This document shows positions 8,863-27,641 of a DNA stretch of 64,000 nt, one piece after another (the first letter of the stretch is position 1; every line of letters begins with the position of its first letter). The notes beneath the pieces are model-generated. The model was not told the origin of the DNA. It made no database searches and was given only the letters and a program-made list of their open reading frames with translations. This stretch comes from Candidatus Melainabacteria bacterium (lineage in GTDB: Bacteria > Cyanobacteriota > Vampirovibrionia > Obscuribacterales > Obscuribacteraceae), in NCBI GenBank assembly GCA_027451745.1, contig DAIDIP010000011.1:1-64000 (forward strand), written 5' to 3'. Position numbers and translations under genes: made by a program.

Positions 8863-8879
8863 GTTTTATCGTAATTTGT

Positions 8880-10331: not shown

Positions 10332-10738
10332 AAGATATCGTAGATATATTTGTTTGATTTATATATGCCATTAATATTGCATATGCATAATGGTGTAAAT
10401 ATACATACACCGGTAAAGTTTAATCTGAATATGCTGATACTCAATAGGCTTATTGGGAATATCTTCGATGAGTGACAAAAATATTTAGGTAGTTTAATTA
10501 ATCTGCATTAATCTTTCTAAGTATTTAAATAAAAAATCGGTTTTCATTGATTGCGAATTATCCTCTACTGGCGTTGGGAGCATTTACAATTCTCCTGATT
10601 TTGCTGTATGCATAATTCACTTGACAATTAAAACAGATTAAGGAATACTAATTAAAACCAGTTAATCTTTATCGCTTTTATGTGTCATTCAGTTTATAGC
10701 CACCTTATATGTAACTTGTGGCAAATGGGAGAGCAATC
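10332..10738. other. 407-base AT-rich intergenic region with a palindrome
   Basis: No open frame of note. It holds a perfect six-pair palindrome GGTGTA (10392-10397)/TACACC (10406-10411) with an eight-base centre, an adjacent GCATATGC palindrome, a distant inverted pair GAAGATAT (near 10333) and ATATCTTC (near 10460), and the promoter at 10621-10649. The palindromes could be operator or structured-leader elements; no RNA family was recognised. Confidence 0.4.
10621..10649 (+). promoter_or_regulatory. Candidate promoter for the TadG-like gene
   Basis: A consensus -35 TTGACA (10621-10626) is followed after 17 bases by AATACT (10644-10649, four of six matches to TATAAT). Transcription would start near 10656 and give a leader of about 80 bases. 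Confidence 0.5.
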
Positions 10739-13198
10739 ATGGGTGTTTATCGAAGAAAAGGCGCTACCTTAGGACTGATGCCGGCAATCATTTTGCTAAT
10801 GATTGTAATTGGCATGGCCGTATTTTATTTTGCTCAATTTGTCGGTGGAAATAAAGAATTAGTCAATGCCACTGATGCTGGTGCTCTAGCTACTGCTAGC
10901 AATATTTTAGCAGTTGGTCTTACCTCTGATGAAGTAAAAAATCTTCCTCCTGAATTTCAGAATCTAGGAGTAGATAATACAGGCACACCAATTGGTATTG
11001 ATGCAAATACCGGCAGCCCTGATTTGACCAATGCCATTTTTAATGTATATGCTTTCAATCGCGCTGCCGGGCTAACCCTATTGGTAGCATTGAATGCTGC
11101 TGAGGATGGTAGTCCCAGTGCAATCTATAATGCCAATACTTTAATCACAGCCTTAAATAATTTCGGCACTAAACTCAATACCGATATGCAAAATAGTCCA
11201 TCCTTTGCCAATGCATTCGTTAATTTAGCAACAAATAATCGCGTAGAAATGCTAGGAAATTCAACTATATCTTTAGGGGATAATGATCAAGTGCAATTTG
11301 CTAACGTACCAAGTGATGGCAGCGGTAAAGCAAATGTCTATTTTAATAGTGCTATTTACCAAAATGATCCAACACTAAAAAATTGGATCCAACAAATGAC
11401 TTCTAGTTCAGGTGCCACTTCTCAAATCAATAGTCGATATAACGCCAGCGATCCTAATGCACAAGCCGGTCAACCATTTGTTTGTGGTTATAAAGCTTTA
11501 GATATGAGCACTATAACAGGAGTGCCTGGCTTCACACCATTGATCTATACCTGCGCTGTAAACCCTGGACAGTTACCGCATATGATTGATCAAAATCGTT
11601 TCAACAACTTAGGAGCGTCTGCTAATTGTTATGCTCCCAGCAACTCAACACTAGCTAAAGCAACAGCCACAGATAATCGGTCTAATTTATTATGCTCGGC
11701 TCTTGGATGCGCTATGTTGGGCTCTTCTGATAATCAATATCCGATAGCCATGTCTTATGGTTGGATCAGAATAAAAAATAATCCTGATGCCATAGAAGCT
11801 AATGTTTCACAAAGTCCAGCAGTTGTTCCTGTGCCATTGTGGATAAACGGTATTGCTAGTATTTTCAACAATGAATTGTGGATGGGTGCAGGCGGCTATG
11901 GTGGTATTAATTTAGCAAACAACAGTGTTTTTGATACAGAAGGCTATGATAATCCTAACGATCCATTTGATGTTGGTCCACCTGGATACAGCGGTGTTGG
12001 AGAGTTAAATGGCTGGGTTTGTTATAATAACTCAAATCCAACAGATCCAACCCTTAAAGATCAATATGGTCATGATAAAACACTTGACCCAAGTCGCTTA
12101 CAGAACTCTGGAAACTATATTCTAGGTTATCCTTCACCAACAGCAAATGTACGTATGTCAGGCAATTTTAATCAAACTGCCACAGTCAATGATATGCGTG
12201 GAGTAACGTCCGTAGTAGCTTACTGCAATTCTGATATGTATATCGCTGGTCAAACACCACAGCTTTGTCAGGATAATTTAACTACATGGACAAGCAATTA
12301 TCGGGCACCTACTACTGGTCCAAATGGTTTGTCGTCTGGTCCCTATGACAATGGAACACAGCCGGTTGGTGGCTTAACTAATATAGAATATTTAAAAGGA
12401 GAAGTAATAGGCGCGTATTGGGATGTGATTCAACAAGTTCATAGCGGTAATAATAATCCACCTGGCCTGACTTTTACCTTAAATGCACCTCAATTACCTT
12501 CTGGCTCAAAAGTCTACGATCGCTCAGATCAGATTGCTTATGCTGTCCCAGGAAGTACACATTCAGTATCTTTTGGTACGGTGGGTACACCTGCAGATTT
12601 GCTAAATCAGCTATACACATATAATGCTACTTGTGCAAATGTGGGCGATACGACCCAATGGAATGATCTCACTACACCGTTAGGCATGTTATTGCAACGC
12701 GCCAAACAAATTTTACCCACTGTGGCAGGATCAGATTTGACTGCCTTATTACAGACGTATCCAATAAACCTTAACCAATATCAGTACATATATTTACCGA
12801 TTGGCGGATCCAAATTGACCATTAGTCAAAGTCCTCCTGCATGGCTCAGTCCATATCCAGAGCATAGCAAACCTGGCGCTACTATTCCAGATGGCACTTC
12901 TGTTCTTACCTGTAAAGACGCAAGTTGGGATGATTCTGGAACTTATATCAAAGGCAAAACAGGTATTGTACCAATAAGTGTTTCAAATACCGTAGTTAAC
13001 TCAATTGCTGGAGGAGTAAACGGCATATACGGAGACGGTTATACCCATCAACAGCCATATGATTCTTTTGCAGGAAATCTCAATACATATGACTCAGTTA
13101 CCTGGACTTCTAATTCCGGACGAAACTTTTTCTTGGGTGAATTGTCTTTCGGTAATTATGTTAATGGCAGTTATGGTACTTACACACAGGCAAATTAG
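10739..13198 (+). CDS. Large TadE/TadG-like protein with N-terminal membrane helix
   Basis: An 819-residue protein. Residues 1-45 carry a basic start (MGVYRRKGATLG) and one hydrophobic helix followed by FVGGNKELVNATDAGALATA. This resembles the Tad domain of Flp-pilus TadE/TadG-like proteins, in which an N-terminal helix precedes a D-A-G/A-L-A-like stretch. The remaining 770 residues are Asn, Ser, Gly and Thr rich, with scattered Cys, and look extracellular. I chose ATG 10739 because GGAGAG (10728-10733) precedes it; the in-frame GTG 10718 lacks one. No other tad genes are nearby, so involvement in a pilus is unproven. Confidence 0.6.
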   Translation: MGVYRRKGATLGLMPAIILLMIVIGMAVFYFAQFVGGNKELVNATDAGALATASNILAVGLTSDEVKNLPPEFQNLGVDNTGTPIGIDANTGSPDLTNAIFNVYAFNRAAGLTLLVALNAAEDGSPSAIYNANTLITALNNFGTKLNTDMQNSPSFANAFVNLATNNRVEMLGNSTISLGDNDQVQFANVPSDGSGKANVYFNSAIYQNDPTLKNWIQQMTSSSGATSQINSRYNASDPNAQAGQPFVCGYKALDMSTITGVPGFTPLIYTCAVNPGQLPHMIDQNRFNNLGASANCYAPSNSTLAKATATDNRSNLLCSALGCAMLGSSDNQYPIAMSYGWIRIKNNPDAIEANVSQSPAVVPVPLWINGIASIFNNELWMGAGGYGGINLANNSVFDTEGYDNPNDPFDVGPPGYSGVGELNGWVCYNNSNPTDPTLKDQYGHDKTLDPSRLQNSGNYILGYPSPTANVRMSGNFNQTATVNDMRGVTSVVAYCNSDMYIAGQTPQLCQDNLTTWTSNYRAPTTGPNGLSSGPYDNGTQPVGGLTNIEYLKGEVIGAYWDVIQQVHSGNNNPPGLTFTLNAPQLPSGSKVYDRSDQIAYAVPGSTHSVSFGTVGTPADLLNQLYTYNATCANVGDTTQWNDLTTPLGMLLQRAKQILPTVAGSDLTALLQTYPINLNQYQYIYLPIGGSKLTISQSPPAWLSPYPEHSKPGATIPDGTSVLTCKDASWDDSGTYIKGKTGIVPISVSNTVVNSIAGGVNGIYGDGYTHQQPYDSFAGNLNTYDSVTWTSNSGRNFFLGELSFGNYVNGSYGTYTQAN

Positions 13199-13219
13199 TC
13201 GCTAGAGAGGCAGATCTCC

Positions 13220-13678
13220 ATGGAAGCTTATTCAAAGAAGAGAATCACAATCTTATTCTTATTGCTCTCAATGCTAACTTGTCCGGATCAATCTGTTTTG
13301 GCTGCCCCAGCACAGAATCAATTGCCAGCTGGTAAAACAGAAAAAAAATTACCGTCTATGGATAGTTTTCACAAAATTCAAAAACCAGAAAACTTTCCTG
13401 ATTTGCCAATTTTTGATGGACATACAACTTTTGCCGGCGGGTTTTATCAACCTGCAATTAACGGTATTAGTATTTGTCAAATGAGATACTATGCGCAAGA
13501 AGATGCTCAGGCAGTCATAGATTTTTATAAAAATGCTTTTAGTGGTAATGGTTGGAAGATACTAAATGCGGCCGGCACTCATTTAACTGCTCGTCACCAG
13601 GATGGGCACATGTGTGCAGTAACTGCAACCGGGTCAAGATTACCCAAAAAAAAAATCACAATTTACTTTGTGTTATAG
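13220..13678 (+). CDS. Secreted protein of unknown function
   Basis: A 152-residue protein with a signal peptide (hydrophobic residues 9-28, cleavage probably after SVLAAP). Residues 85-150 contain AVIDFYKNAFSGNGWKIL and a beta-rich end, resembling the core of the lipoprotein at 3257. A ten-A run (13646-13655) encodes the C-terminal PKKK; slippage there would change only the last ten residues. It lies 21 bases after the TadG-like gene and is probably cotranscribed. Function unknown. Confidence 0.65.
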   Translation: MEAYSKKRITILFLLLSMLTCPDQSVLAAPAQNQLPAGKTEKKLPSMDSFHKIQKPENFPDLPIFDGHTTFAGGFYQPAINGISICQMRYYAQEDAQAVIDFYKNAFSGNGWKILNAAGTHLTARHQDGHMCAVTATGSRLPKKKITIYFVL

Positions 13679-15358: not shown

Positions 15359-15481
15359 TTAGAATTCAGCAACTAGACCAAAACAAGCAATTAGAACTAT
15401 AAAAGCAAAATACAATATGAAAAACCAGAACCAGCGTTGGATAAGCTGAAACTCGCTAATTGTTTTCTTTTCTACGGCCAT
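15359..15481 (-). CDS. Small single-pass membrane protein (40 aa) at the end of the respiratory operon
   Basis: The frame starts ATG at 15481, 18 bases after the MvhD-like gene stop, with AGAGAG eight bases upstream. It encodes a polar start (MAVEKKTISEFQLIQR), then a strongly hydrophobic helix of about 21 residues (WFWFFILYFAFIVLIAC) and a short end (FGLVAEF), stop TAA at 15361-15359. Small single-helix subunits of this kind are common in cytochrome bc and oxidase complexes. Position and ribosome binding site support a real gene; there is no homology evidence. Confidence 0.6.
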   Translation of the reverse strand: MAVEKKTISEFQLIQRWFWFFILYFAFIVLIACFGLVAEF

Positions 15482-15499
15482 TTTATTTATCTCTCTATG

Positions 15500-15919
15500 C
15501 TATGAAGCGGCTTTGGCTGTGCTTTCTTCTTGATCTAATTTGGCCATTTGGGTGACAAATTCTTTTGCTTCAGAAAGAAATCTCTGTTTTTGCATTCTAG
15601 ACAGCCATAATGCCATAACACGGCGTCTATCGACTGCCTTCTTAAGTCCAGGCGGACGTTCGCCTAACAAGCGATCTCTTATCATTTTATTGCCTTCGCG
15701 ATAATAACAATCACCAATTTGGCAACCGCAAACTATAACACCGCCTGCGCCAGCCTTAAGAGCTGCTTCAATCATTAAGGGTTGAATCATGCCACTACAA
15801 GGGAATTTAACAACATGCACATCAGGCATGCCAACTATGCTTTCATTTTTATCAAGTAATGAATTTAAGTCGGCAGCTCTTTCACATACAAGAGTGATAA
15901 CTGTTTTTTTGTCAGCCAT
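15500..15919 (-). CDS. MvhD/FlpD-like iron-sulfur electron-transfer protein
   Basis: The 139-residue protein matches the FlpD/MvhD domain (delta subunit of F420-non-reducing hydrogenase), which carries a [2Fe-2S] cluster and links heterodisulfide reductase to hydrogenase or dehydrogenase partners. Seen: VKFPCSGMIQPLMIEAA, GGVIVCGCQIGDCYYREGN, RRRVMALWLS. Cysteines are at 12, 41, 64, 66 and 71; the usual N-terminal CxxC is reduced to a single Cys12. The start overlaps the stop of the cytochrome b-ferredoxin gene by one base (TAATG), so they are coupled. No hydrogenase or Hdr genes are in the window. Confidence 0.85.
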   Translation of the reverse strand: MADKKTVITLVCERAADLNSLLDKNESIVGMPDVHVVKFPCSGMIQPLMIEAALKAGAGGVIVCGCQIGDCYYREGNKMIRDRLLGERPPGLKKAVDRRRVMALWLSRMQKQRFLSEAKEFVTQMAKLDQEESTAKAAS

Positions 15920-17121
15920 TACTTTACCTCCGCCAAGCTTTTAATTTGAGTAAGGACTGTCGCATCTGGCAATTGCGGTAGATCTATAGCATCAAAAGCA
16001 CAGGCTCCAACACATATACCACAAGAGGAACAACGCGGGACATTGACTGTCGCTAACAATTTAAAACGTGAACCAGCAGGTGCTGGAACCATTTCAATTG
16101 CTTGATAAGGACAATCGCGATAACACAAAGAACAACCAGTACATTTGTTAATTACTACTTCAGCTGGTGTTACAGGTGGTGATACTGTTTTGACAAACCA
16201 AGGCAGTATTGTGGCTCCTACAGCCAATGCGGTCATACTTATCCAGAATACAGACATAGGCATATGAGCCATCAGCCAATAATTGAAGAGGAAAAACCAA
16301 TCAACATCATAAGTATTAGGCTGTGTATTCAAGTTGGCCATATTACCGCTGCTAATAGGCACTAAAAATACAATGAGTAAAATAGCTGCTACGAGAATGA
16401 AATTGACAGCAGGCGGAGGTGTAATTACAGGTCTGGTCATACGAACATAATGCAACCAGAGTACAAATAGAAGAGCAAAGGAAAGTCCAATATGGATAAA
16501 CAAAAAATTGGACAAAGTTAGATTTGTTATTGTGTCACCATTTAAGAACCAAGCTTTTAATGGAGCACCAATAATAGGCAAAGCATCTAAAGCACTTACT
16601 GTCATACGGGTAAGTAGCAATGAACGCTCATCCCAAACTAGATAATAACCAGTTTGACCAATAAACAAAACCATCAATAGAAGGATTACACCTGTCGCCC
16701 ATTGAATCCAACGATATTGACGATATCTATCCGTAAACCAAACACGTATTGCATGCAAGAAAATAAATAAAACCATAGCATCGCCAGAATAGCGATGAAT
16801 GCCTCGAATCACCCCACCAAATGGCAATGAATTAGTTATGTATTGAACAGAAGTCCAAGCATTAATAAGTCTATTGGATAAATAGGCGTTATCTATTGTG
16901 GGCACATAATAGGCGAATAATAATAGTCCAGATAAAAACAATACCCACAAATAAAATTGGGGGAGAGCGCCGTGATAATAGAAAGGATTATATTTGCTTG
17001 TAATTGCAGTATTAATGCCGTCTTCGATGGCTAGTGTCAGTTTATTAGCAGCCTCAATAAACTGGTTATACACTTGCTTTAACCAATTATTGTTTGTTTC
17101 ATTTTTGACTGAACTGGTCAC
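15919..17121 (-). CDS. Cytochrome b (four haem ligands) fused to a 2[4Fe-4S] ferredoxin domain
   Basis: Residues 55-310 are an N-terminal-type cytochrome b. Haem ligand histidines occur in two pairs at the 14-residue spacing of bc1: His109/His123 (RGIHRYSGDAM...FLHAIR) and His210/His224. The glycine motif GYYLVWD is kept, and the Qo PEWY motif is degenerate (VDWF at 273-276). Residues 325-376 form a two-cluster ferredoxin with Cys 327/330/333/337 and 364/367/370/374. This fusion is not part of ordinary bc1 or b6f complexes. It follows the 113-aa membrane protein by 13 bases and is coupled to the MvhD-like gene. It probably moves electrons between quinone or haem and iron-sulfur carriers; the direction is unknown. 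Confidence 0.88.
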   Translation of the reverse strand: MTSSVKNETNNNWLKQVYNQFIEAANKLTLAIEDGINTAITSKYNPFYYHGALPQFYLWVLFLSGLLLFAYYVPTIDNAYLSNRLINAWTSVQYITNSLPFGGVIRGIHRYSGDAMVLFIFLHAIRVWFTDRYRQYRWIQWATGVILLLMVLFIGQTGYYLVWDERSLLLTRMTVSALDALPIIGAPLKAWFLNGDTITNLTLSNFLFIHIGLSFALLFVLWLHYVRMTRPVITPPPAVNFILVAAILLIVFLVPISSGNMANLNTQPNTYDVDWFFLFNYWLMAHMPMSVFWISMTALAVGATILPWFVKTVSPPVTPAEVVINKCTGCSLCYRDCPYQAIEMVPAPAGSRFKLLATVNVPRCSSCGICVGACAFDAIDLPQLPDATVLTQIKSLAEVK

Positions 17122-17134
17122 TTTACCTATACCT

Positions 17135-17476
17135 CTATTTTTTTGCTTCTAAAACAGTCTTTTCAGAATCGTCTTCTTTGCCGATTAAAACAATAGCTAT
17201 CGCCGAGGCAGTCATAGCAACAAATAAGAATAAAGAATAGGCATAGTCACCTAGATTAGTTTGTACGTCTTTAGGAGTGACCAATTCCATCAATTTATTG
17301 TGAGTAGCCAAATCAGCAAAAAACTTGTTTACACCAAAATGTCCCATAACACCAGAGAGCCAACCAGGAAAGTTGCCAGTGAAATTAAGCTCTGACCAAG
17401 GCATAAATACTAAGCTCACGATTAAACATAAAGCTGCCAATATCAGAATTACGATGTCTTTTATTCCTTTGATCAC
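17135..17476 (-). CDS. Small two-helix membrane protein of the respiratory operon
   Basis: A 113-residue protein with transmembrane helices at about 8-27 and 80-100 separated by a 50-residue loop (MPWSELNFTGNFPGWLSG...), ending in a charged tail. It has no Cys pair or haem motif. It is 13 bases upstream of the cytochrome b-ferredoxin gene, so it is probably an accessory subunit of that complex. No family recognised. Confidence 0.6.
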   Translation of the reverse strand: MIKGIKDIVILILAALCLIVSLVFMPWSELNFTGNFPGWLSGVMGHFGVNKFFADLATHNKLMELVTPKDVQTNLGDYAYSLFLFVAMTASAIAIVLIGKEDDSEKTVLEAKK

Positions 17477-17582
17477 TCTATATTCGCTCCACTCACGCTC
17501 ACTTCATCCTTCGTTCGTTCCGCTTATTGCCGCTCACTACCGCCACCTCTCCGTCGCCGTTCGTTCGCTACTTCCTCATTTG
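17477..17582 (-). repeat. Purine-rich spacer with tandem-like GAGCG/CGAAC elements
   Basis: The 106 bases between two operon genes are strongly asymmetric: almost all pyrimidine on the plus strand, hence a GA-rich transcript. It has recurring elements (GTGAGCG and AGTGAGCGG; AACGAACGAAGG and AGCGAACGAACGG) and visibly higher GC than neighbouring DNA. No start codon with suitable frame is used. It could be a dispersed repeat, an mRNA-stability element or foreign DNA. Confidence 0.5.
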
Positions 17583-17963
17583 TTAATTTCCTTTTTTAAA
17601 CCAGCTTTGTTCTAACTTTTCAAAGTGCTCAATTTTTTTTCTTAATGTGCCTTTGTATTTTTCTTCTAAGTAGATCCAAAATCCTTGCAGCCAGAGTAAA
17701 ACAGCTGTTATTAAGGTACCGCTAACAAAAACTAAAATATGCGAAAGAGTAAAGCCTTTATTTATTTGACGCCAACCTTCAAAGAACCAAGAAAGAGCCA
17801 AAACTGACAAAACAATTACTGCTAGCCGAATAGGCAGCTTAACTTTAAAGCTCTTAATTTCTGGCGCTAGTACTTGGGCTGTCATTTTTTCTAAATCTTT
17901 TCCTTCTTTGTTTTGCTGTGGCTTTTCATGAGCTTTGTTTCGCTTTTTCTTTGCCTTAGCCAT
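17583..17963 (-). CDS. Small two-helix membrane protein next to cytochrome b
   Basis: A 126-residue protein with a Lys-rich cytoplasmic N-terminus (MAKAKKKRNKAHEKP), two transmembrane helices at about 45-62 and 72-92, and a charged helical C-terminus (EEKYKGTLRKKIEHFEKLEQSW). It starts six bases after the stop of the 609-aa cytochrome b, so it is almost certainly cotranslated with it and may be a small subunit or assembly factor. No motif recognised. Confidence 0.6.
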   Translation of the reverse strand: MAKAKKKRNKAHEKPQQNKEGKDLEKMTAQVLAPEIKSFKVKLPIRLAVIVLSVLALSWFFEGWRQINKGFTLSHILVFVSGTLITAVLLWLQGFWIYLEEKYKGTLRKKIEHFEKLEQSWFKKGN

Positions 17964-17969
17964 AACATT

Positions 17970-19799
17970 CTATGTATTAGAGGTTACCGGTTTAGCAACT
18001 TCTTTTTGTGTTTGCTCGGTGATTGGCTTTTTACTTATCCACCAAGTAGCAATACCTGCAATCAAAACAACCAATGATAGCCACATCCATGCAAGATCTA
18101 AATCAGGCACATTAAGTGGATACGGTGGAACTTTTCCTGGAGTCATACGATTATAGAAAGTCAGATAATCGTTCAACCAACGATTGGTTACCATAAAATC
18201 CAACATTCCTTGATATGACGCATGTGGCGCAGGGGTAAAAGTTGGTATTAATTTGAACATCCAATCTAAATTGGTATGAGTCTGGCATGCTTGAGCTAAT
18301 TGCTTTAGTAAATCCTGACCAGCTGGAGCGCCAACAGTTTTTATGTATGAAGGATCAAGAAGGGTGTGGAAATTCCAATATTCTTGATTTATAGGATGGT
18401 CAATTGGATTGAGTTTGGCTACCAATTCTTCAGCTTTTTTACAGGCGTCTCCGGCAGTTATTTTATTGCAAAATAGCCTATAGAACCAACCTTGTCCTAT
18501 AGGAGACAAGAACATTTCCGTTTTAGCCATGTAGTAATAAGCAATGGCTACAATACCTTGCACAGCACCAACCATAGCCAAAATCATTGCCGCTTTAGCA
18601 TTCTTTAAACGCTGTGGCATTTGTTTTTCTTGCCACATCAGTACTAATTGCCAAATTACACCAATATCTATTAAGCCATACAAGAAAAGGCGCCAATAAG
18701 GTGGATCGTTATGAATATTTGCGATATTAACAATGATCAAGAAGGAAAATATAATCCAGCATAAAGCTCCCATTACGCTCACCATAAAAATAAGTGGCCG
18801 TTTGGAAATATCTTTTTCTGGTCCAGTTATCCAACTATCTATAAAAGGCAACAAGATTACAGAAAGAGGAATGACCATCGTGATTTCAGTTGCAACGACC
18901 GGCTCCAGGTATTTATACATTTGGTAAAGTCCAAGGAAATACCAGTCAGACAAAATTGGTAATGGTGTTACATCAGGGTTTGAGCGGTGTCCTTGGGCAG
19001 CTGGCAAAACAACCGATACCAAGACCAACATAAGAATGATAACAGTGCGCTTTAGCCAACTAAGCGGTATACGCTTATATGAGTTTTTGTAAAAATAAAG
19101 CTCCACAAAAATAAGAGGAATTAACGAAAAAGCCAAGTGAATAGAAAAGAAACGTGTAATTGTTTCTTGTGTAATAGCAGCACCACCGCCTAATAGTGCT
19201 TCAGCTGTGTTCCAGCCCATATGCATCGATTTGACCAATGGCAAATAAAAATCTCCCATTACAGGAAATTGATCCATATAAGTTGGGAATGTAGCGAACA
19301 CTTTTGTAGCCCAAAAAGCGCGCTGATTCCAGATCAATAAATAACCAGTTAAACCAGAATACATAGAAAGCAAAAGACTCACTAAGCCAATTGCTATATT
19401 AAATTCCTTACCTGGCTTATAGTCAGCCATTAAAAACATACGATACAAGCGCATAGTAGCAGCAATAATCATGGCGTCGGCACCATATTTGTGCATGCCC
19501 CGAATTAAACCACCAAATGGAATACTATCTTGTATTTTTAAAATTGAATCAAAAGCAGCTGCTTTAGTGGGGATGTACCACATAATGAGTAAGCATCCTG
19601 TGGTTATAACAATGAACCAGACCAAATAGAAAATAGGGCCCAAAGCATAAAACGGATTTGTTTTTGCCTCAGTTTGATAGTGTTCATCAAAAATATCTAT
19701 ATTTGCTATCCTGGTTTGAGCCCAGTCAAGCGCACCATTTAATGCATTACCGATTGTGCTTGCGATGCCACCTGACACCGTCTGCGATGTGTTAGGCAA
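17970..19799 (-). CDS. Cytochrome b of a Rieske/cytochrome b complex, lacking bH haem ligands, with C-terminal extension
   Basis: This 609-residue protein has a cytochrome b core at residues about 50-400 (IRGMHKYGADAM, SGLTGYLLIW, TRFFSIHLAFS, Qo motif SDWY at 284-287). The bL ligands are His103 and His221. The positions 14 residues on, where bc1 and b6f have the bH ligands, are Arg117 and Tyr235, so only haem bL is expected. Residues 410-609 are an unusual extension: one helix, a roughly 130-residue extracytoplasmic domain with a few Cys but no CxxCH, and a final helix. It overlaps the Rieske gene end by eight bases. No separate subunit IV is present because the protein covers both halves. 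Confidence 0.9.
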   Translation of the reverse strand: MPNTSQTVSGGIASTIGNALNGALDWAQTRIANIDIFDEHYQTEAKTNPFYALGPIFYLVWFIVITTGCLLIMWYIPTKAAAFDSILKIQDSIPFGGLIRGMHKYGADAMIIAATMRLYRMFLMADYKPGKEFNIAIGLVSLLLSMYSGLTGYLLIWNQRAFWATKVFATFPTYMDQFPVMGDFYLPLVKSMHMGWNTAEALLGGGAAITQETITRFFSIHLAFSLIPLIFVELYFYKNSYKRIPLSWLKRTVIILMLVLVSVVLPAAQGHRSNPDVTPLPILSDWYFLGLYQMYKYLEPVVATEITMVIPLSVILLPFIDSWITGPEKDISKRPLIFMVSVMGALCWIIFSFLIIVNIANIHNDPPYWRLFLYGLIDIGVIWQLVLMWQEKQMPQRLKNAKAAMILAMVGAVQGIVAIAYYYMAKTEMFLSPIGQGWFYRLFCNKITAGDACKKAEELVAKLNPIDHPINQEYWNFHTLLDPSYIKTVGAPAGQDLLKQLAQACQTHTNLDWMFKLIPTFTPAPHASYQGMLDFMVTNRWLNDYLTFYNRMTPGKVPPYPLNVPDLDLAWMWLSLVVLIAGIATWWISKKPITEQTQKEVAKPVTSNT

Positions 19800-20364
19800 T
19801 TCCCCCAGCCTCCAATGACACTATTTTGTACTGATCCCCTTCTCTTTTAATATCAAAATGTCTTGGCGGACGCGGTGCTGGACCGCTTACTACTTTTCCA
19901 CCTTGAGCTATGTCATAAACACTTAAGTGACAAGGGCAGGCGAATACTGGACCTTCAGGTTTAAAGTTATAGCCTTTGGCACATTCTGAAGGATCTTTGA
20001 CAAAGTTAAATATACAGCCAAGATGTGGGCAAATTCGGCTATATGCAACAATTTCTCCATTTGGCAGCTTAACAATGAAACCGGGAATCATTCGTGTTTC
20101 TTTGCCTTCTGGATTGTATTCTATATAGCTTTGTTTAAATACAAATGGCAAACAAGTCCACGCTTCAGGGAAATCGCTATCTTTAAAAACAACTGATTCT
20201 TCGGCAGATGGTTGATCAGACTTACCAAAAACGTCTAATGGTTTGAGTGTAGGTCTTAAATATCTAAGCAGTGGCGAGGCTAATAAACCAAAAGTGGCAG
20301 CAAGCGGAATTGCTGCAGCAGTTTTGAGAAAAATTCTTCTTGATTTACTTAGCTCTTCAGTCAT
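19792..20364 (-). CDS. Rieske [2Fe-2S] protein of the cytochrome b complex
   Basis: A 190-residue protein with a Tat-type signal anchor (SRRIFLK at 8-14, hydrophobic 15-35) and a Rieske fold. Cluster and disulfide residues are all present: Cys112-x-His114-x-x-Cys117 (CPHLGC) and Cys143-x-Cys145-His146 (CPCHLS). It takes electrons from quinol at the Qo site and passes them to cytochrome c. A segment of about 20 residues (DPSECAKGYNFKPEG) between the two motifs is longer than in simple Rieske proteins and has an extra Cys128. It is coupled to the following cytochrome b by an eight-base overlap. Confidence 0.95.
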   Translation of the reverse strand: MTEELSKSRRIFLKTAAAIPLAATFGLLASPLLRYLRPTLKPLDVFGKSDQPSAEESVVFKDSDFPEAWTCLPFVFKQSYIEYNPEGKETRMIPGFIVKLPNGEIVAYSRICPHLGCIFNFVKDPSECAKGYNFKPEGPVFACPCHLSVYDIAQGGKVVSGPAPRPPRHFDIKREGDQYKIVSLEAGGIA

Positions 20365-20469
20365 TGATATTTACCATTTATTTATTGTTTTCATTATTCT
20401 AGTTAATTTATACTTTAAGTCGTCTTTACTACTTCTGATCATAACTTAATAACCGATTTTCAATTTTAC

Positions 20470-21246
20470 TTATGTACTTAAGTTTTTACCTTTAGATTCT
20501 TGAGATGAGGAAGGAAGCGTTTTTTCTGTCGTTTCGTGGAAATGTCTTACATAATCAACTAATTTCCATATATAAGCATCAGTAAATTGCACATTTTTTG
20601 CTTTATCTTCTTTGCCTAAGAAATTTGGCATGCCTTCCCATTTAATTCCATTGGCAATATGGTCCCACAGAATACTGTCTGTGCGATCGTAGAAACGTTT
20701 GAAGTCTTGAAAATTAGCCGGAATTGGCTCCAGGTTGTGCGCCAATGGTCCATCACCATATCCCTTTTTACCGTGACATACAGCGCAATTAGAACCGAAC
20801 ACAGCATCTACTTCCATGACTTGTTCTGGAGTAGCTGGCGGTCTGGCAATTGAACGGACATAAAAGACAAGGCTCCATGCTTCTCGCCTACTTACAAGTT
20901 TATCTATAGCAGGGTGCTTACCTTGACTATCGCCATATACCAAGAATTTATATTGATCAACAGGCTTTTGTCTGTTCATATAATTCTTGTCAGACAAATT
21001 GATCGAACTTTTTCCATTCACCCCTTTGCCATCAATCCCGTGACATGATGCACAATTTAGTTTTTGCCAAACAATCTGACCATCTGGCACTGACGGTGTG
21101 GCATCCGGGTAAATAATGTCTTCTTTACCAGCAGTAATATTTTCTTTAATCAAAGAAGTTTCTTTACCCTGCAGGACTTCTTTATTACTGCAAGAGGCAA
21201 GTAATAAGGGTAGTAACGTAATTAATAGGCTGATTCTTTTTTTCAT
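20470..21246 (-). CDS. Diheme c-type cytochrome lipoprotein
   Basis: A 258-residue protein with a lipoprotein signal (LAS-C19) and two class I cytochrome c domains, with haem-binding Cys65-x-x-Cys68-His69 (CASCH) and Cys154-x-x-Cys157-His158 (CAVCH). Likely Met ligands lie downstream (for example the MPNFLG region for the second haem). Located between the oxidase and Rieske genes, it probably replaces cytochrome c1 and carries electrons from the Rieske protein to the cbb3 oxidase. This links complex III and complex IV functions in one operon. Confidence 0.9.
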   Translation of the reverse strand: MKKRISLLITLLPLLLASCSNKEVLQGKETSLIKENITAGKEDIIYPDATPSVPDGQIVWQKLNCASCHGIDGKGVNGKSSINLSDKNYMNRQKPVDQYKFLVYGDSQGKHPAIDKLVSRREAWSLVFYVRSIARPPATPEQVMEVDAVFGSNCAVCHGKKGYGDGPLAHNLEPIPANFQDFKRFYDRTDSILWDHIANGIKWEGMPNFLGKEDKAKNVQFTDAYIWKLVDYVRHFHETTEKTLPSSSQESKGKNLST

Positions 21247-21261
21247 TTTTCCTTAGTTCAA

Positions 21262-21504
21262 CTAATAACCAAAAAACGGTATCCAGGAAAATAAAGCCCA
21301 GACAACAATAAAAATAAAAACTACAACCAAAAAAAGCGGTGGCGGTCCTTCACCAATGCGATACTCAGATACTTCTTCATAGTGTTCATCATCAGGAGAG
21401 TGTGCGGATTGCTGAGCAAGCGCTTTTGCTTGCACTGCTTTGCCTTGTCCTGTTATTGGTGCACCTGTTTGTTGGGGTGCTTTTTCCACTGCTTCTTCTG
21501 CCAT
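21262..21504 (-). CDS. Small C-terminally anchored membrane protein of the cbb3 cluster
   Basis: An 80-residue protein: a polar, Gln/Ala-rich first half and one transmembrane helix at the C-terminus (PPPLFLVVVFIFIVVWALFSW). The segment DEHYEEVSEYRIGEGPPPLF resembles in layout the N-terminal anchor of CcoP, which precedes its helix with an acidic stretch. Because the cytochrome domain of CcoP is fused to CcoO here, this may be the separated anchor, or a CcoQ-like subunit. This is inference from position and layout. Confidence 0.55.
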   Translation of the reverse strand: MAEEAVEKAPQQTGAPITGQGKAVQAKALAQQSAHSPDDEHYEEVSEYRIGEGPPPLFLVVVFIFIVVWALFSWIPFFGY

Positions 21505-21521
21505 ATCACTTCTCGATTTAC

Positions 21522-21761
21522 TTAACCAATATTTTCAGCACGCAATTTTTCAAAATGAGCTTTAGCTTTTTGAGCAAGATCTCCTTCAGGACCGTCATCT
21601 AACATGTCAAATTTGCTATCTTCCATATTTTCAAATTCGCCATTCTTAAAAGCCCACATCATAGCCAAAACACCAACGATAAAAAACAATCCACAAATGC
21701 CAAAGGCAACATACATTCCTGATTGGAGGCTGGCTTGATTAAGAATGCAATTAGGGCACAT
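21522..21761 (-). CDS. CcoS-like cbb3 oxidase assembly protein with an N-terminal CPNC motif
   Basis: A 79-residue protein. After one helix (about 15-37) comes AFKNGEFENMEDSKFDML, closely matching the CcoS/FixS pattern W-A-V-x-S-G-Q-F-D-D-L. CcoS helps insert copper or haem into cbb3 oxidases. Unusual is the start MCPNCILNQ: a CxxC pair that could bind a metal is not part of ordinary CcoS. It lies two bases after the ccoO stop. Confidence 0.7.
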   Translation of the reverse strand: MCPNCILNQASLQSGMYVAFGICGLFFIVGVLAMMWAFKNGEFENMEDSKFDMLDDGPEGDLAQKAKAHFEKLRAENIG

Positions 21762-21763
21762 AA

Positions 21764-22717
21764 TTAACCTCCCGTATGAGGTTCGTATTGTTGTTCAGAC
21801 AGTTTTGGTAATTTAACTGGCTGCAGCTTATCAAGCTGGTTAATTTGATCGATAACTACTTCTTTGTCTTTAGGCAAAGTTTTCAAATAAGCGACTAAAT
21901 ACCAGCGTTGCTCTTCAGTGAGCACTTCACCAAATCGTGGCATGCGCGTACCAGCCACACCCTCGCTTACACGATAGAACCAAAACTCGTCTGGATACTG
22001 TTTATAGAATGGGCGACTGAAATTAGCTGGCTTTTTCTCTAATGTGATTGAATTTGGGCCATTACCAAAGCCTTCTAAGCCATGACAGACAGCACAATTT
22101 TGTGTATAAATACCGCGTCCAGCATTTGCTGCTGCTGATGAATTGGTATCGACAGTTCTGCGAGCTATCAACTTTTGTCCCGCTTCAGTTGTTGATTGAT
22201 ATTCATCTGGAGCTTCAACATAATGCTTCACTTTACGCATATTGCCAAGAGTTTGTATGTACGAAACCAAGTCATTCATGTCTTCGTTAGACAAGTAGCT
22301 AAAGCTTGGCATAATCGAACCTGGTTTCACTGCTCGTGGATTTACCAAATGTGCTTTTTGCCATTCAGAAGACATCCGTCCACCTTCATTAGTTAAATCA
22401 GGACCAGTACGCGCTGTACCCAACACATGCGGAGTTTCATAAGTTTGGTCATTATCTTTGTAGTAATCCCCAGCTCTAACTAATGGACCGTAGCCACGAT
22501 CTTGTAAGCGAGTGAATTGGCTGTGGCAATAAAAACAGCCTTCTCGTACATAAATTTGTCTGCCGCGATGAGGATTAGCAATTTTAGTAGCTATGTACTC
22601 ATTCCCGTTCCCGGTTTGCTTGGGATTAAAAACATACATAGGCATCAAAACAGTAGAAAAAATGATTATAAAGAAGGTGGTCATGATACCAATAGCTGCT
22701 TTACCGTAACTGTTCAT
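21764..22717 (-). CDS. ccoO: cbb3 oxidase cytochrome c subunit, CcoO-CcoP fusion
   Basis: Residues 1-165 are CcoO: one membrane anchor (10-30), the haem site Cys61-x-x-Cys64-His65 in REGCFYCHSQF, and GPDLTNEGGR. Residues 195-300 are a second cytochrome c domain with Cys208-x-x-Cys211-His212 (NCAVCHG), as in CcoP. So one 317-residue protein carries both electron-input haems, whereas proteobacteria use a mono-haem CcoO and a di-haem CcoP. The start overlaps the ccoN stop by one base (TAATG). Confidence 0.92.
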   Translation of the reverse strand: MNSYGKAAIGIMTTFFIIIFSTVLMPMYVFNPKQTGNGNEYIATKIANPHRGRQIYVREGCFYCHSQFTRLQDRGYGPLVRAGDYYKDNDQTYETPHVLGTARTGPDLTNEGGRMSSEWQKAHLVNPRAVKPGSIMPSFSYLSNEDMNDLVSYIQTLGNMRKVKHYVEAPDEYQSTTEAGQKLIARRTVDTNSSAAANAGRGIYTQNCAVCHGLEGFGNGPNSITLEKKPANFSRPFYKQYPDEFWFYRVSEGVAGTRMPRFGEVLTEEQRWYLVAYLKTLPKDKEVVIDQINQLDKLQPVKLPKLSEQQYEPHTGG

Positions 22718-24129
22718 TAGGCTTTCACCTCCACAGGTTTAGCCAGTTTTACCTCTTGTGCAGTTTTTGGCGTATATAAGGTTTTATAAGTGTTATAAGC
22801 AAAAATACATTGACCAAGCAAAATCATAATTCCGCTAAGTTCACGGAAGAACCAGTAGGGTCGAATTTGCAAACTCCATTGATCAACTGGAATACCAAAT
22901 GCCCAGCCAGCTGCTTGAACTAGACCAGCAATGGTCAAAGAAACCATCATCAAAATAAAGCCCAATGTTTTAAGCCAATAATGGGCTCTGATCATTCCTT
23001 GACTGTGCCAATTTTTACCGGTTAAACGCGGCATACTGTAATAAAACGCAGAAGTTAAAATAAAAGAAAACGTTCCAAGAAGTGCTAAATGGGCGTGTCC
23101 AACTACCCATTGGGAAAAGTGCAAATACCAGTTAACCCAGCGAGTAGCTTGAAATGGCCCTTGTACGCAAGTAATGAGATAAAACACTGCTGAGGTAACA
23201 GCAAAACGTAAAGGTAGATCGGTGACAACTTGTCCCCATTTCCCCCGCATAGTCATAAAGAAATTTGTTAGCACAGTCAAAACAGGCACAAGCAAAAATA
23301 TAGAAGAAATTACAGCAATTGCTTTCAGCCATTCTGGAGCTGGTGATTGCAAAATATGGTGGGTGCCAGTTGGAGCATAGAACAGAGCGATACCCCAAAA
23401 GCCCAGCATTGATAATCCATGACTGTATAAAGGTGCCTGAGTAAGTCTTGGTAGAAGGTAATACATCATGCCTACACCAACAGTAGTGAACCACATGCCT
23501 AATATATTGTGACCATAAAACCAGCCAACAATGGCATCGTTCAAACCAGGCAAAGCAACAAAGGTTCGTTGTCCAATAATGTATACAAGCGGAAACCAAA
23601 AGAGCGATCCAAGAAAATACCAGAGTGAAACATATAGCTTTTTTACTTTGCGATTGATCAAAGTCATATATATGTTGACGGCTATAGTAAGAAGACCAAC
23701 AACAACCAACACATCTATAATCGCTCCCAATTCAGCATATTCGCGGCCTTCTGTATTGCCATTAAGCAAAGTGCACATAGCACAGACCATTAATATGTTC
23801 CAAACCCACATTGTGAAATTGCCCCAGCGCTCACTCCACAACTTTGTCTTACATAAGGTCGGAACCATGTGGAACATTGCTCCCACATATCCCATTGATA
23901 GCCAACCTATAGCAACTGCATTAACATGCCACATGCGTAAATGAGGCATAGCTAATTGCGGAACATTATGTACTAAGTCTGGCATCGCAAATTCGGCAGC
24001 AGCAAACAAACCCGCCCCCATGCCAAGCAGTGACCACCACAAAGCAGAAAGGAAAAAGTTTCGACTTGCACTACCTTCTTGATCGCTCAACAAATTTGCT
24101 GAAATATTTTTGGCAATCGCCCCTAACAA
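22717..24129 (-). CDS. ccoN: cbb3-type cytochrome c oxidase subunit I
   Basis: Catalytic subunit of a C-family haem-copper oxidase, about 12 helices. The ligands are all in place: the low-spin haem His in RMWHVNAV, the CuB His in GWFYGHNILG, the CuB pair in TGTHHIL, the haem ligands in VVGHAHLALLG, and the helix VII tyrosine region GVGMMYYLLPR. I prefer the TTG at 24129 (470 aa) because GGAG (24141-24138) lies eight bases upstream; an upstream in-frame TTG at 24171 gives 484 aa without such a site. It is the first gene of the minus-strand respiratory operon. Confidence 0.95.
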   Translation of the reverse strand: MLGAIAKNISANLLSDQEGSASRNFFLSALWWSLLGMGAGLFAAAEFAMPDLVHNVPQLAMPHLRMWHVNAVAIGWLSMGYVGAMFHMVPTLCKTKLWSERWGNFTMWVWNILMVCAMCTLLNGNTEGREYAELGAIIDVLVVVGLLTIAVNIYMTLINRKVKKLYVSLWYFLGSLFWFPLVYIIGQRTFVALPGLNDAIVGWFYGHNILGMWFTTVGVGMMYYLLPRLTQAPLYSHGLSMLGFWGIALFYAPTGTHHILQSPAPEWLKAIAVISSIFLLVPVLTVLTNFFMTMRGKWGQVVTDLPLRFAVTSAVFYLITCVQGPFQATRWVNWYLHFSQWVVGHAHLALLGTFSFILTSAFYYSMPRLTGKNWHSQGMIRAHYWLKTLGFILMMVSLTIAGLVQAAGWAFGIPVDQWSLQIRPYWFFRELSGIMILLGQCIFAYNTYKTLYTPKTAQEVKLAKPVEVKA

Positions 24130-24270
24130 CTTTTTTGCTCCTGAGAACTTGTAATGAATGAATTTTATCAATGGTCATTATGTCAGCCGAACTTAGTCAA
24201 ATTAATTACGCGATTACCATTGATACAAAGCGTAACGGATGTTTGAAGAGATTTATTTTTTGCATATATT

Positions 24271-24332: not shown

Positions 24333-24932
24333 CTATAGGGCAAATAAATCCAAACCATTAAACTCATTCATTGCTTGTTCTATACCACTGGTCAGCCACA
24401 CACAACATGCGTTACTGGCAAGCTCTATTACTTGCTGCAGAATATTCCTTTCACTTTTAGTGAATTTTCCTAAAACATAATTTGCTCTTAATTCGCCACC
24501 TGGATCAGGCCCGATACCTATTTTTAGACGATTGAAATCTTTTGCGCCACCAAGAGAATTGATAATTGATTCCACTCCGTGCTGACCTCCTGCCCCACCT
24601 TCTTTTTGCAAGCGAATCTTTCCCAAAGGCAATGAAACATCATCATGAACAACCAATAAATTGTTAGAATCAATCTTGTAAAAGTTTTTTATAGCAAGTA
24701 CAGCTTTGCCAGATTCATTCATGTATGTAGTTGGTTTTGCAAAATAAACTTTATCTGAGCAAAAACTTGCCGCAGATATATATGCATATAAACGTTTATT
24801 CAAGGAAAAATTTTCTGCTTTTATATTGTGCCTAAGAACAAGGTTATCTAATACATCAAAACCAGCATTGTGTCTTGTGTTTTCATATTTTGAATCGGGA
24901 TTGCCAAGACCGACTATGACTTTAGTATTCAA
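24333..24932 (-). CDS. pth: Peptidyl-tRNA hydrolase
   Basis: Recycles tRNA by hydrolysing peptidyl-tRNA released from stalled ribosomes. The 199-residue protein shows VIVGLGNPDSKYENTRHNAGF (catalytic His in RHNAG), KPTTYMNESG, VVHDDVSLPLGKIRL and GGAGGQHGVESI, all typical. Two TTG starts are possible; the one at 24932 sits eight bases after AGGGA, the one at 24938 only two. It lies upstream of ccoN on the same strand but 160-200 bases away, so it is probably a separate unit. Confidence 0.96.
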   Translation of the reverse strand: MNTKVIVGLGNPDSKYENTRHNAGFDVLDNLVLRHNIKAENFSLNKRLYAYISAASFCSDKVYFAKPTTYMNESGKAVLAIKNFYKIDSNNLLVVHDDVSLPLGKIRLQKEGGAGGQHGVESIINSLGGAKDFNRLKIGIGPDPGGELRANYVLGKFTKSERNILQQVIELASNACCVWLTSGIEQAMNEFNGLDLFAL

Positions 24933-25271
24933 ATTCAAATATCCCTAAAAAGCTTTCAGAAATTAAGCCACTAAATATGGTGGCTTATTGCTCCAGCACC
25001 ATAAAAACATTCCAATGCGGATTGCTTATTAAAGCGTCCATTTATTTAAGATACCTTATAAACACTCAATTAGCTTTTGAAATATTTAGTATTATTCAAA
25101 ATTGAGTGCAGCTAAGATTTATGTAAGCAAACCTTTTGCTGAGAGAAGCGTTTTGATCACTAATAAGAAAGATTTGAGCGATAGTTAAAAGACTAATTAG
25201 CCAAAATTACTGGACGAATTGCTAGGATTAGGCTTTCCATCCCTATAATTTGGGAGCAATATAATTTTATT
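24933..25271. other. Divergent intergenic region between pth and gcvPA
   Basis: About 340 bases. An eight-pair stem TAAGCCAC (24964-24971)/GTGGCTTA (24980-24987) lies close to the pth start and could be a terminator-like or operator element. TATAAT occurs at 25244-25249, close to the gcvPA start, but no good -35 is 17 bases upstream. I looked for a glycine riboswitch before gcvPA and found no recognisable paired aptamer. Confidence 0.4.
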
Positions 25272-26714
25272 ATGACTAATTGCCAAGAAACACTTACATC
25301 AGCAGCGACCACTAGCGAAACAATGAAAGCCAAAAGCGACTCAACAGAATTTTATCAAAGCAATACAGCAGCTGAGATACATTATCCGTATCTGCCTCAT
25401 ACTGAAGCTGACCGCATGGCTATGCTGGCAGAAATAGGGGTGCGCTCTTTTGAAGATTTAGTAAAACATATTCCATCGAGCATACGCTCTAAACCCTTGG
25501 CTTTACCTCAAGCAATGAGCGAGCAAGAATTAGTTAGCTATATTAGTGAATTAGCCAAAAAGAATAAACCAGCCTCAGCACAAAGCTGCTTTTTAGGCGG
25601 TGGTTCTTATAGACGCTTTGTGCCTGCCGTAGTACCAGCTATAGTTTCTCGCAGTGAATTTGCCACAAGCTACACCCCCTATCAGTCCGAAGTAAGTCAA
25701 GGCAATTTGCAGTCGATTTACGAATTTCAAACAGCTATTTGTTTGCTGACCAACATGGATGTTGCCAATGCTTCTATGTATGATGGTCCTACAGCCTGTG
25801 CCGAGGCAGTTCTTATGGCTTGTCGCATAACGGGAAAACAAAAGATTGCTGTGAGCAATTGTCTCAATCCAGAATATCTTGCTGTAGTAAGCACATATGT
25901 ACAATCTTGTGGGCTTAAATTAGAAACAATTGCCTCAGAACAAGGAAAAACACAGCTATTTAAGCCTGGTAATGATATAGCTGCAGTAATAGTGCAATAT
26001 CCAAATTATTATGGCACCGTGGAAGACTTAAAAATTCTGGAAACAACAATACACGCTGCTGGCGCTTTACTTATAGTTGTTTCAGACCCAATTGCACTAG
26101 GATACTTAACTCCTCCTGGAGATTTTGCTGCTGACATTGTAGTGGGTGACGCTCAACCTTGTGGTAACGGGCTTTCTTTTGGTGGTCCTTCAGCGGGGTT
26201 TATGGCCTGCCGGAAAGACTACATTCGACAACTTCCAGGACGGCTGGCTGGCATCACAGTAGATAGTGGAGGACGCAGGGCTTACACTTTAACCTTACAA
26301 GCTCGAGAACAACATATTCGCCGCTCCAAAGCCACTTCAAATATTTGCACCAATCAGGCTTTAAATGCGCTCACCATGCTTGTTTATCTATCCGCTTTAG
26401 GACCTGAAGGATTAAAGTCAATAGCGCACGCGAGTATGCAAAAAGCTCATTATTTAGCCGGCGAAATGACAAAGATACCCGGTGTGAAACTTGCTTTCAA
26501 TAGCTCATTTTTTAGTGAATTTGCAATTACCACACCCAAGCCAGCAAAAGAGTTACTCAAATTGCTAGAAGCTCAAAACATATTAGGTGGTTTAGAATTG
26601 AGTTCGTCAGACGCCAAATTAAACAATGGCATTTTGATTGCTACAACTGAAATGAATAGCAAAAACGAAATGGATAATTATGTAAAAGTTCTAAAAGACC
26701 TTTTATCTAAATAA
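25272..26714 (+). CDS. gcvPA: Glycine dehydrogenase (decarboxylating) subunit 1
   Basis: N-terminal half of the split P-protein of the glycine cleavage system, which decarboxylates glycine and loads the aminomethyl group on GcvH. The family pattern begins PYLPHTEADRMAMLAEIG and continues FLGGGSYRRFVPAVV, YTPYQSEVSQGNLQSIYEFQT, MYDGPTACAEA and GLSFGGPSAGFMACR. The PLP lysine resides on subunit 2 (gcvPB), which is not in this window. The first 38 residues are an extra polar segment relative to the family; ATG 25320 is an alternative start. Confidence 0.95.
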   Translation: MTNCQETLTSAATTSETMKAKSDSTEFYQSNTAAEIHYPYLPHTEADRMAMLAEIGVRSFEDLVKHIPSSIRSKPLALPQAMSEQELVSYISELAKKNKPASAQSCFLGGGSYRRFVPAVVPAIVSRSEFATSYTPYQSEVSQGNLQSIYEFQTAICLLTNMDVANASMYDGPTACAEAVLMACRITGKQKIAVSNCLNPEYLAVVSTYVQSCGLKLETIASEQGKTQLFKPGNDIAAVIVQYPNYYGTVEDLKILETTIHAAGALLIVVSDPIALGYLTPPGDFAADIVVGDAQPCGNGLSFGGPSAGFMACRKDYIRQLPGRLAGITVDSGGRRAYTLTLQAREQHIRRSKATSNICTNQALNALTMLVYLSALGPEGLKSIAHASMQKAHYLAGEMTKIPGVKLAFNSSFFSEFAITTPKPAKELLKLLEAQNILGGLELSSSDAKLNNGILIATTEMNSKNEMDNYVKVLKDLLSK

Positions 26715-26840
26715 TCAACAATACTAGTCAAGGCTCTATGTGGCATTGAAGGCAGTATTTATTCGTGAGATAATAGTCAATCTGGGCAATGGGTAGTCTT
26801 AAATGCAACTTTTACTCAATGACTGCTTAATAGGTAAAAA

Positions 26841-27641
26841 ATGGAACAATTTGACTCAGTTTCGTCGCGTGAAGCAACGCCTCATTTAGCAGAACAAAAG
26901 CAAATGTCAGGACAAGATAATTCGCTTCAAAAACATAATAAGCAAGAACCTAATTTCATAGTCTCTTTAATAAAAGAAGTAGTGGAGCTGGTGGTAGTAA
27001 CTCTTGTTTTATTAATAGTGATTCGCTGGGCTTTGGCTGAAGCTCGCTACATTCCTTCAAGCTCAATGGAACCCACTCTACAAATTAATGATCGTCTATT
27101 AGTAGAAAAAGTATCTGGTCATTTCAATGTTCCTATTAAGCGTGGCGATATTTTAGTTTTTTATCCACCACCGGTAGAAATGGGTGGACATGATTTAAGC
27201 AGTGATCCATTGACAGTACTTGGACGTTTGACCGGGTTGCCGTTTTTACCTTATGAGGCTGCTTTTATCAAACGGGTTATTGGCTTACCAGGTGATCATA
27301 TTCGTATAGCTAAAAACCAAGGTGTTTTTATAAATGGCCAGCTTTTAAACGAATCGGCATATATTAAGGAATTGCCTGGCTATGATTTGACTGTATTGGG
27401 AGATATACAGGGAAGATCAGCTGGAGGCGGCGTTATTAGACCTTATGGGGACAGTGAACATGCTAGTCAGCCAATCGTAATTCCTCCTGGTCACTTATTT
27501 ATGATGGGCGACAACAGAAATAACAGTGAAGATAGCCATGTTTGGGGCTTTTTAGATCAAAAACGGGTTATTGGTAGAGCTTGCTTACTTTTCTGGCGTC
27601 AGTTAGAAGCCCCCAAATATCCTCAAGTTATTTACGAATAA
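26841..27641 (+). CDS. lepB: Signal peptidase I
   Basis: Cleaves signal peptides outside the cytoplasmic membrane. The 266-residue protein has a 40-residue polar N-terminus, one transmembrane helix (about 45-65), and the catalytic dyad Ser75 (PSSSMEPTL) and Lys144 (IKRVIGLPGD). The C-terminal box MGDNRNNSEDSHVWGF is complete. An insertion between the two catalytic boxes (VEMGGHDLSSDPLTVLGRL) is longer than in the E. coli-independent short forms and resembles cyanobacterial enzymes. No ribosome binding site is evident before ATG 26841. Confidence 0.96.
   Translation: MEQFDSVSSREATPHLAEQKQMSGQDNSLQKHNKQEPNFIVSLIKEVVELVVVTLVLLIVIRWALAEARYIPSSSMEPTLQINDRLLVEKVSGHFNVPIKRGDILVFYPPPVEMGGHDLSSDPLTVLGRLTGLPFLPYEAAFIKRVIGLPGDHIRIAKNQGVFINGQLLNESAYIKELPGYDLTVLGDIQGRSAGGGVIRPYGDSEHASQPIVIPPGHLFMMGDNRNNSEDSHVWGFLDQKRVIGRACLLFWRQLEAPKYPQVIYE

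Follow-up and report, generated by a model that had tools for sequence, protein, structure and literature searches.

Two complementary cytochromes b in a cbb3 oxidase operon of Vampirovibrionia: a candidate asymmetric Rieske complex with an HdrA/MvhD-type iron–sulfur module

Complex III and O2 reductase gene sets of Melainabacteria have been described before, reportedly also by Soo et al. in 2017. Genes annotated petB/petC that adjoin an O2 reductase, and a complex III–IV 'fusion' in Obscuribacter, are already on record (Carnevali et al. 2019, PMC6349859). For Rieske/cytochrome b complexes of anammox bacteria, quinol bifurcation involving a cytoplasmic oxidoreductase has been proposed (PMC12954380), while an engineered Rhodobacter bc1 complex with G158W (at the quinol oxidation site, Qo) and H212N (a heme bH ligand) in opposite cytochrome b halves works through bL–bL transfer (Czapla et al. 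2013, PMC4330944). Here we analyse an operon from a Candidatus Melainabacteria bacterium (3.0 Mb genome, class Vampirovibrionia, Cyanobacteriota; labelled G000 in our genome sample), located in a 64,000-nucleotide stretch of contig DAIDIP010000011.1 that we call the window. It encodes a cbb3 oxidase, a Rieske protein, an MvhD/FlpD-type [2Fe-2S] protein and two different cytochromes b, one of 609 amino acids (cytb609) and one fused to a C-terminal 2[4Fe-4S] ferredoxin (Fd) domain (cytb-Fd). Judged by sequence, the two cytochromes b complement each other as halves, the bH ligands being lost in cytb609 and the Qo site decayed in cytb-Fd; the initial annotation had taken the second cytochrome b as a simple addition, and this part of it has to be revised.

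Pfam Cytochrome_B is found in both proteins (E 1e-25 and 3e-23), and their heme ligands were compared with those of 31 canonical cytochromes b/b6, all of which have the four heme histidines in one joint alignment. The same four positions are histidines in every cytb-Fd sequence (H109, H123, H210 and H224, 61/61). In cytb609 the bL ligands H103 and H221 are kept in 60/60 sequences, the first bH position (117) is arginine in 52 and lysine in 8, and the second (235) is tyrosine in all 60. HMMER alignment to solved b6 likewise sets R117 on the bH histidine at the helix-B position. No other invariant His, Met or Cys is present in residues 45-370 of cytb609, M121, M257 and M343 being nearly so. The glycine that packs against bH on the n-side of helix C occurs without exception in cytb-Fd (61/61) and in the canonical sequences (31/31), and is replaced by a mixture in cytb609 (Ala 27, Gly 23, Cys 7, Ser 3). 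It is conceivable that the operon encodes a near-ordinary complex III beside cbb3, with a regulatory or structural role for the Fd domain and MvhD, and an unusual heme ligation that offsets the bH substitutions. Conservation of Y235 and of R/K117 speaks for such an arrangement, as do the published petB/petC annotations (PMC6349859). However, arginine is unusual as a heme ligand, cytb609 alone has a relaxed bH-packing glycine, and the eight cluster cysteines of the Fd domain and four cysteines of MvhD are conserved, so that we consider this explanation quite improbable.

The two proteins conserve opposite sides of the membrane. In cytb609 the Qo loops (the cd loop and TPLPILSDWY) have mean entropies of 0.15 and 0.37, with 33 of 50 positions invariant; the corresponding values for cytb-Fd are 1.65 and 2.14, with 2 of 50 invariant. 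On the n-side (helix-A entry plus B-C loop) 14 of 28 positions are invariant in cytb-Fd versus 4 of 28 in cytb609. In Mann-Whitney tests on paired genomes p is 3e-9 for Qo and 3e-7 for the n-side, values that are descriptive because alignment columns are not independent; effective sequence numbers for the two cytochromes b are about 22 and 11. Canonical b6 is conserved on both sides. The Qo motif (PEWY type) is an invariant SDWY in cytb609 and a D-W-like remnant in cytb-Fd.

The iron–sulfur part of the operon resembles consecutive C-terminal parts of a single protein: the Fd domain of cytb-Fd matches residues 571-644 of HdrA2, and MvhD matches residues 649-776. MvhD also matches the solved MvhD 5odc_D (E 9e-25), and its C12, C41, C66 and C71 are invariant. 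Full HdrA with its flavin adenine dinucleotide (FAD) domain was not found in five genomes examined, where other matches were short, general stretches. When cytb-Fd is oriented by bc1 topology, its six transmembrane (TM) helices follow an n-side start and the Fd domain lies, by analogy and in the model, at the cytoplasmic face beside bH.

Taken together, these features probably describe a respiratory assembly with two parts, a cbb3 oxidase and a Rieske/cytochrome b complex made asymmetric by two non-equivalent cytochromes b; this assessment covers architecture and not direction. A cytb609/cytb-Fd heterodimer with obligatory bL–bL transfer and a role for the iron–sulfur wire would account for every conserved feature in the simplest way. 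In such a complex cytb609 would bear the only well-preserved Qo site, with the Rieske protein as its partner. The high-potential electron would pass from the Rieske protein to the diheme cytochrome c, ccoOP and O2. Since cytb609 would lack heme bH, the low-potential electron could not complete a quinone (Q) cycle there and would have to cross from bL of cytb609 to bL of cytb-Fd, and on to bH of cytb-Fd on the cytoplasmic side. Its exchange partner at this heme might be menaquinone, bound at one n-side site, or the HdrA-type 2[4Fe-4S] domain and through it MvhD, or both. Alternatively, the two cytochromes b might belong to separate assemblies: a short-circuit quinol:cytochrome c reductase of cytb609, Rieske protein and cbb3, and a ferredoxin:menaquinone oxidoreductase of cytb-Fd and MvhD. 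Each half does keep a self-consistent set of sites, and Qmo-like membrane modules that combine a cytochrome b with Fe-S proteins exist. But in 60/60 loci the genes stay together in a single operon, and the bL ligands of cytb-Fd are strictly kept despite Qo decay, which is most easily explained if this bL is fed from a neighbour; we regard separate assemblies as unlikely. Several observations weigh against the asymmetric complex itself: by its sequence Y235 of cytb609 could carry a Tyr-ligated heme, the D-W remnant of cytb-Fd may allow some residual Qo function, and the AlphaFold single-chain model of the Fd domain has low confidence (predicted local distance difference test, pLDDT, ~45), as have the Qo loops in such models.

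The direction of electron flow can be approached from the cell context, for which five genomes were examined. Menaquinone genes of the futalosine type are present in 5/5, and each genome has two matches to 2-oxoacid:ferredoxin oxidoreductase. NuoF is absent in 4/5, and the fifth, the window genome, has a single NuoF-type match. We rejected this match as a complex I subunit, because it is the HoxF of a HoxE-F-U-Y-H-type set for a bidirectional [NiFe] hydrogenase linked to nicotinamide adenine dinucleotide (NAD) (L192:4754-9622; G000:C2 ~8754-13622). From these gene counts ferredoxin is probably plentiful in the cell and menaquinone is likely the quinone. No further cytochrome b of this family was found in the window genome and Vampirovibrio, and the window genome has only one other Rieske domain, within a 107-amino-acid frame; at least two of the five genomes have no Rieske/cytochrome b complex III but that of this operon.

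The initial annotation had suggested bifurcation or its reverse, and the architecture would suit either. Outward flow would be bifurcation, in which low-potential electrons go to a cytoplasmic acceptor such as ferredoxin and the partner electron goes to O2; we regard its chances as evenly balanced. It is slightly favoured because bH is removed from the Qo-bearing subunit and electrons are forced into the Fd-bearing one. The same asymmetric complex might instead work as an input device, in which reduced ferredoxin (or another donor) would deliver electrons via MvhD and 2[4Fe-4S] to bH, and one ferredoxin electron and one Qo electron would together reduce menaquinone at a single quinone reduction site (Qi), a ferredoxin-boosted Q cycle. 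Such a scheme resembles ferredoxin-driven cyclic flow around b6f, and it agrees with the two oxidoreductase matches per genome, the missing or Hox-linked NuoF, the menaquinone genes and the strongly conserved n-side of cytb-Fd, which fits a retained Qi. A partial complex I in Melainabacteria, akin to one thought to use ferredoxin, points the same way (PMC6349859). On the other hand, complex I would already offer a route for ferredoxin oxidation with a better energy yield, the loss of bH in cytb609 is not by itself required for input, and cytb-Fd has no heme-cn cysteine of the b6f type. At the heme-cn position at the entry of helix A, where 23/25 cyanobacterial b6-type sequences have this cysteine, cytb-Fd has Tyr49 and cytb609 has Ala, Ser, Thr, Gln or Lys. 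We see input as the less likely direction, though nearly on a par with outward flow. The full proposal, for which the balance falls a little short of even, is a natural obligate heterodimeric complex III in which the halves of the Q cycle would lie on separate cytochromes b, bL–bL transfer would be the sole route, and the low-potential electron would reach cytoplasmic Fe-S carriers over an HdrA/MvhD-type wire while its partner goes to O2 via cbb3.

The operon consists of 12 tightly packed genes on the minus strand (window 15359–24171) with intergenic gaps or overlaps of -8 to ~+106 bp. Families were assigned with Pfam and NCBIfam profiles, and the genes are listed in operon order from ccoN on:
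22717..24171, minus strand: ccoN, catalytic subunit of the cbb3 oxidase (ccoN family, E 6e-83)
21764..22717, minus strand: ccoO-ccoP fusion with two CxxCH hemes (FixO, E 4e-31, plus cytochrome c)
21522..21761, minus strand: ccoS/FixS-like protein (FixS, E 5e-6)
21262..21504, minus strand: 80-amino-acid protein with a single predicted TM segment and a conserved C-terminal end (present in 56 loci)
20470..21246, minus strand: diheme cytochrome c with a lipobox-like N-terminus (Cytochrom_C, E 1.5e-15)
19792..20364, minus strand: Rieske [2Fe-2S] protein with a Tat-like N-terminus (Pfam Rieske, E 2e-9)
17970..19799, minus strand: cytb609, 609-amino-acid cytochrome b (Pfam Cytochrome_B; cytochrome b fold by Foldseek)
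17583..17963, minus strand: 126-amino-acid protein with two predicted TM segments (conserved operon position; no family match)
17135..17476, minus strand: 113-amino-acid protein with two predicted TM segments (weakly conserved; frequently not detected in orders other than Obscuribacterales)
15919..17121, minus strand: cytb-Fd, cytochrome b with a C-terminal 2[4Fe-4S] domain (Cytochrome_B plus Fer4 dicluster; bc1/b6 fold)
15500..15919, minus strand: MvhD/FlpD [2Fe-2S] protein (FlpD, E 3e-20)
15359..15481, minus strand: 40-amino-acid peptide with a single predicted TM segment, the last operon gene (present in 52 loci)

The single operon on one strand had been recognised at the outset, and all the genes named then are present; the conserved 80-amino-acid gene at 21262-21504 had been left out. 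The start of ccoN has two TTG options, 24171 or 24129, the latter, chosen in the initial annotation, being preceded by AGGAG. In CcoN the residues H82, H221, Y265, H271, H272, H351, H359 and H361 are invariant in an alignment of homologues, and all of these but H351 we take to be the heme and CuB ligands, going by the spacing in P. stutzeri. Exactly two CxxCH motifs are found in 56/56 homologues of ccoOP, and two in 55/56 homologues of the diheme cytochrome c, which is a candidate c1-type acceptor for the Rieske electron. The Rieske protein conserves C112, H114, C117, C143, C145 and H146, of which the two-Cys two-His ligands C112, H114, C143 and H146 are invariant in alignments of 21 and 59 sequences. 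Scans for promoters and terminators gave nothing above chance. In most Obscuribacterales loci a peptidyl-tRNA hydrolase gene and a glycine-dehydrogenase-like gene (window 24333-27641) adjoin the operon, so its neighbourhood is syntenic too, and a signal peptidase gene also lies beside it in some loci of this order.

The same gene order is found in 60/60 retrieved loci of six families, as far as contigs extend, although the smallest genes occasionally give weak scores or go undetected in this comparison. The loci come from Obscuribacterales, Caenarcaniphilales and Vampirovibrionales and include Ca. Obscuribacter phosphatis and Vampirovibrio chlorellavorus. Such constancy of the core order means that the arrangement is not due to chance; together with the profile matches it bears out the association of a Rieske protein, two cytochromes b, a ferredoxin domain and MvhD with a cbb3 oxidase, as well as the conservation among relatives that had been named as a check. 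Of the class, 382 genomes were sampled: 80 have cytb-Fd, 78 have cytb609 and 78 have FlpD, and each of the three is present in 44/319 genomes of good quality. In the mismatched genomes checked, which lack FlpD (G331, G374) or cytb-Fd (G297), the locus ends at a contig end. Wherever FlpD/MvhD occurs among the 382 genomes it is single-copy, the listed copies all adjoin cytb-Fd, and MvhD is the sole FlpD of the window genome. In other sampled families of the class (e.g. f2, f44) the operon is absent among the genomes listed. No full-length relative outside the class was found in a phylum sample and one scan of public contigs, a scan limited to the family-specific peptides CVGAC.F and TDRYR.YR, which distant relatives in other phyla may have escaped. 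In an unrooted tree each of the two cytochromes b forms a single clade with 100% support. Residues ~400-609 of cytb609, its C-terminal third, align only among Obscuribacterales versions (~600-630 amino acids), those of other orders being shorter (~440-530 amino acids).

Other Rieske/cytochrome b genes occur in the Obscuribacter phosphatis genome. A second cluster, at L187:5950-10144 in this genome and also at L188:6248-10545, has a canonical four-His PEWY cytochrome b, together with a multi-TM protein and another membrane protein whose C-terminus bears a c-type heme motif. At L190:427-8640 of the Obscuribacter phosphatis genome, NarG/NarH-like genes precede those for a cytochrome b and a membrane protein that contains a Rieske domain, which suggests another complex III, linked to nitrate reductase.

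Electron crossing between the two bL hemes in working complex III has long been disputed, and tests of it relied on engineered asymmetric dimers. If our proposal is true, the asymmetry has been fixed by evolution in the aerobic orders of the class, and a natural enzyme would depend on electron transfer between its monomers and allow it to be measured. A respiratory complex III would then exchange electrons with cytoplasmic low-potential Fe-S carriers in non-photosynthetic relatives of cyanobacteria; in the photosynthetic cyanobacteria, close relatives of the hosts, electron flow between ferredoxin and b6f has long been a question. It would amount to bifurcation to ferredoxin, or confurcation from it, of an aerobic and quinone-based kind, and would redraw the respiration of Vampirovibrio and Obscuribacter, which now reads 'petB/petC, complex III'.

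Several known systems share parts of this design. With canonical bc1/b6f the operon shares the two-Cys two-His Rieske protein; unlike them, it has a four-His cytochrome b only in cytb-Fd, cytb609 having H, R/K, H and Y at these positions (60/60), and the b6f heme-cn cysteine is missing from both. As in C-family oxidases, the CcoN heme and CuB ligands are present, but ccoO and ccoP are fused with two CxxCH motifs instead of forming a separate monoheme CcoO and diheme CcoP. Coupling of complex III to cbb3, which here would follow from the genes, is known from supercomplexes of engineered R. capsulatus (PMC7876108) and P. aeruginosa (8smr), whose bc1 is, however, an ordinary homodimer without an Fe-S module. 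As in HdrABC-MvhAGD (5odc) and HdrA2, MvhD with four conserved cysteines stands beside an HdrA2-type 2[4Fe-4S] domain, but in place of the HdrA FAD domain there is a cytochrome b. The published sets of Melainabacteria and Ca. Obscuribacter phosphatis come from the same organisms and have petB/petC-like genes next to a type C oxygen reductase; they are annotated as b6f subunits, and the sections cited here do not mention complementary cytochromes b, bH loss, the Fd domain or MvhD (PMC6349859). A further case is that of the anammox complexes Kustd1480-1485 and Kuste4569-4574, in which a Rieske/cytochrome b complex has a cytoplasmic redox module proposed to take the low-potential quinol electron. 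They are modelled as homodimers with a b6-type cytochrome b plus subunit IV, heme cN, multiheme cytochrome c and an NAD(P) oxidoreductase (PMC12954380), whereas the operon described here has two different cytochromes b, an HdrA-like Fd domain with MvhD, and O2 reduction via cbb3. Neither an NAD(P) oxidoreductase nor a multiheme cytochrome c subunit is among the genes of the window operon, and the same genes recur in the 60 loci. The literature found contains no bH-less cytochrome b in a Rieske complex, no complementary loss across two natural cytochromes b and no HdrA/MvhD wire on a Rieske complex; the initial view that no such complex had been described holds for these features within that literature and must be qualified by the Melainabacteria (PMC6349859) and anammox (PMC12954380) precedents. 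The proposed complex has the layout of the cross-inactivated bc1 (PMC4330944), where, as here at the level of sequence, Qo is lost in one cytochrome b and a bH ligand in the other. That enzyme is a laboratory fusion of cytochromes b without an Fe-S module, and the one encoded here is apparently natural and class-wide: nature may have made the asymmetric enzyme that laboratories had to engineer.

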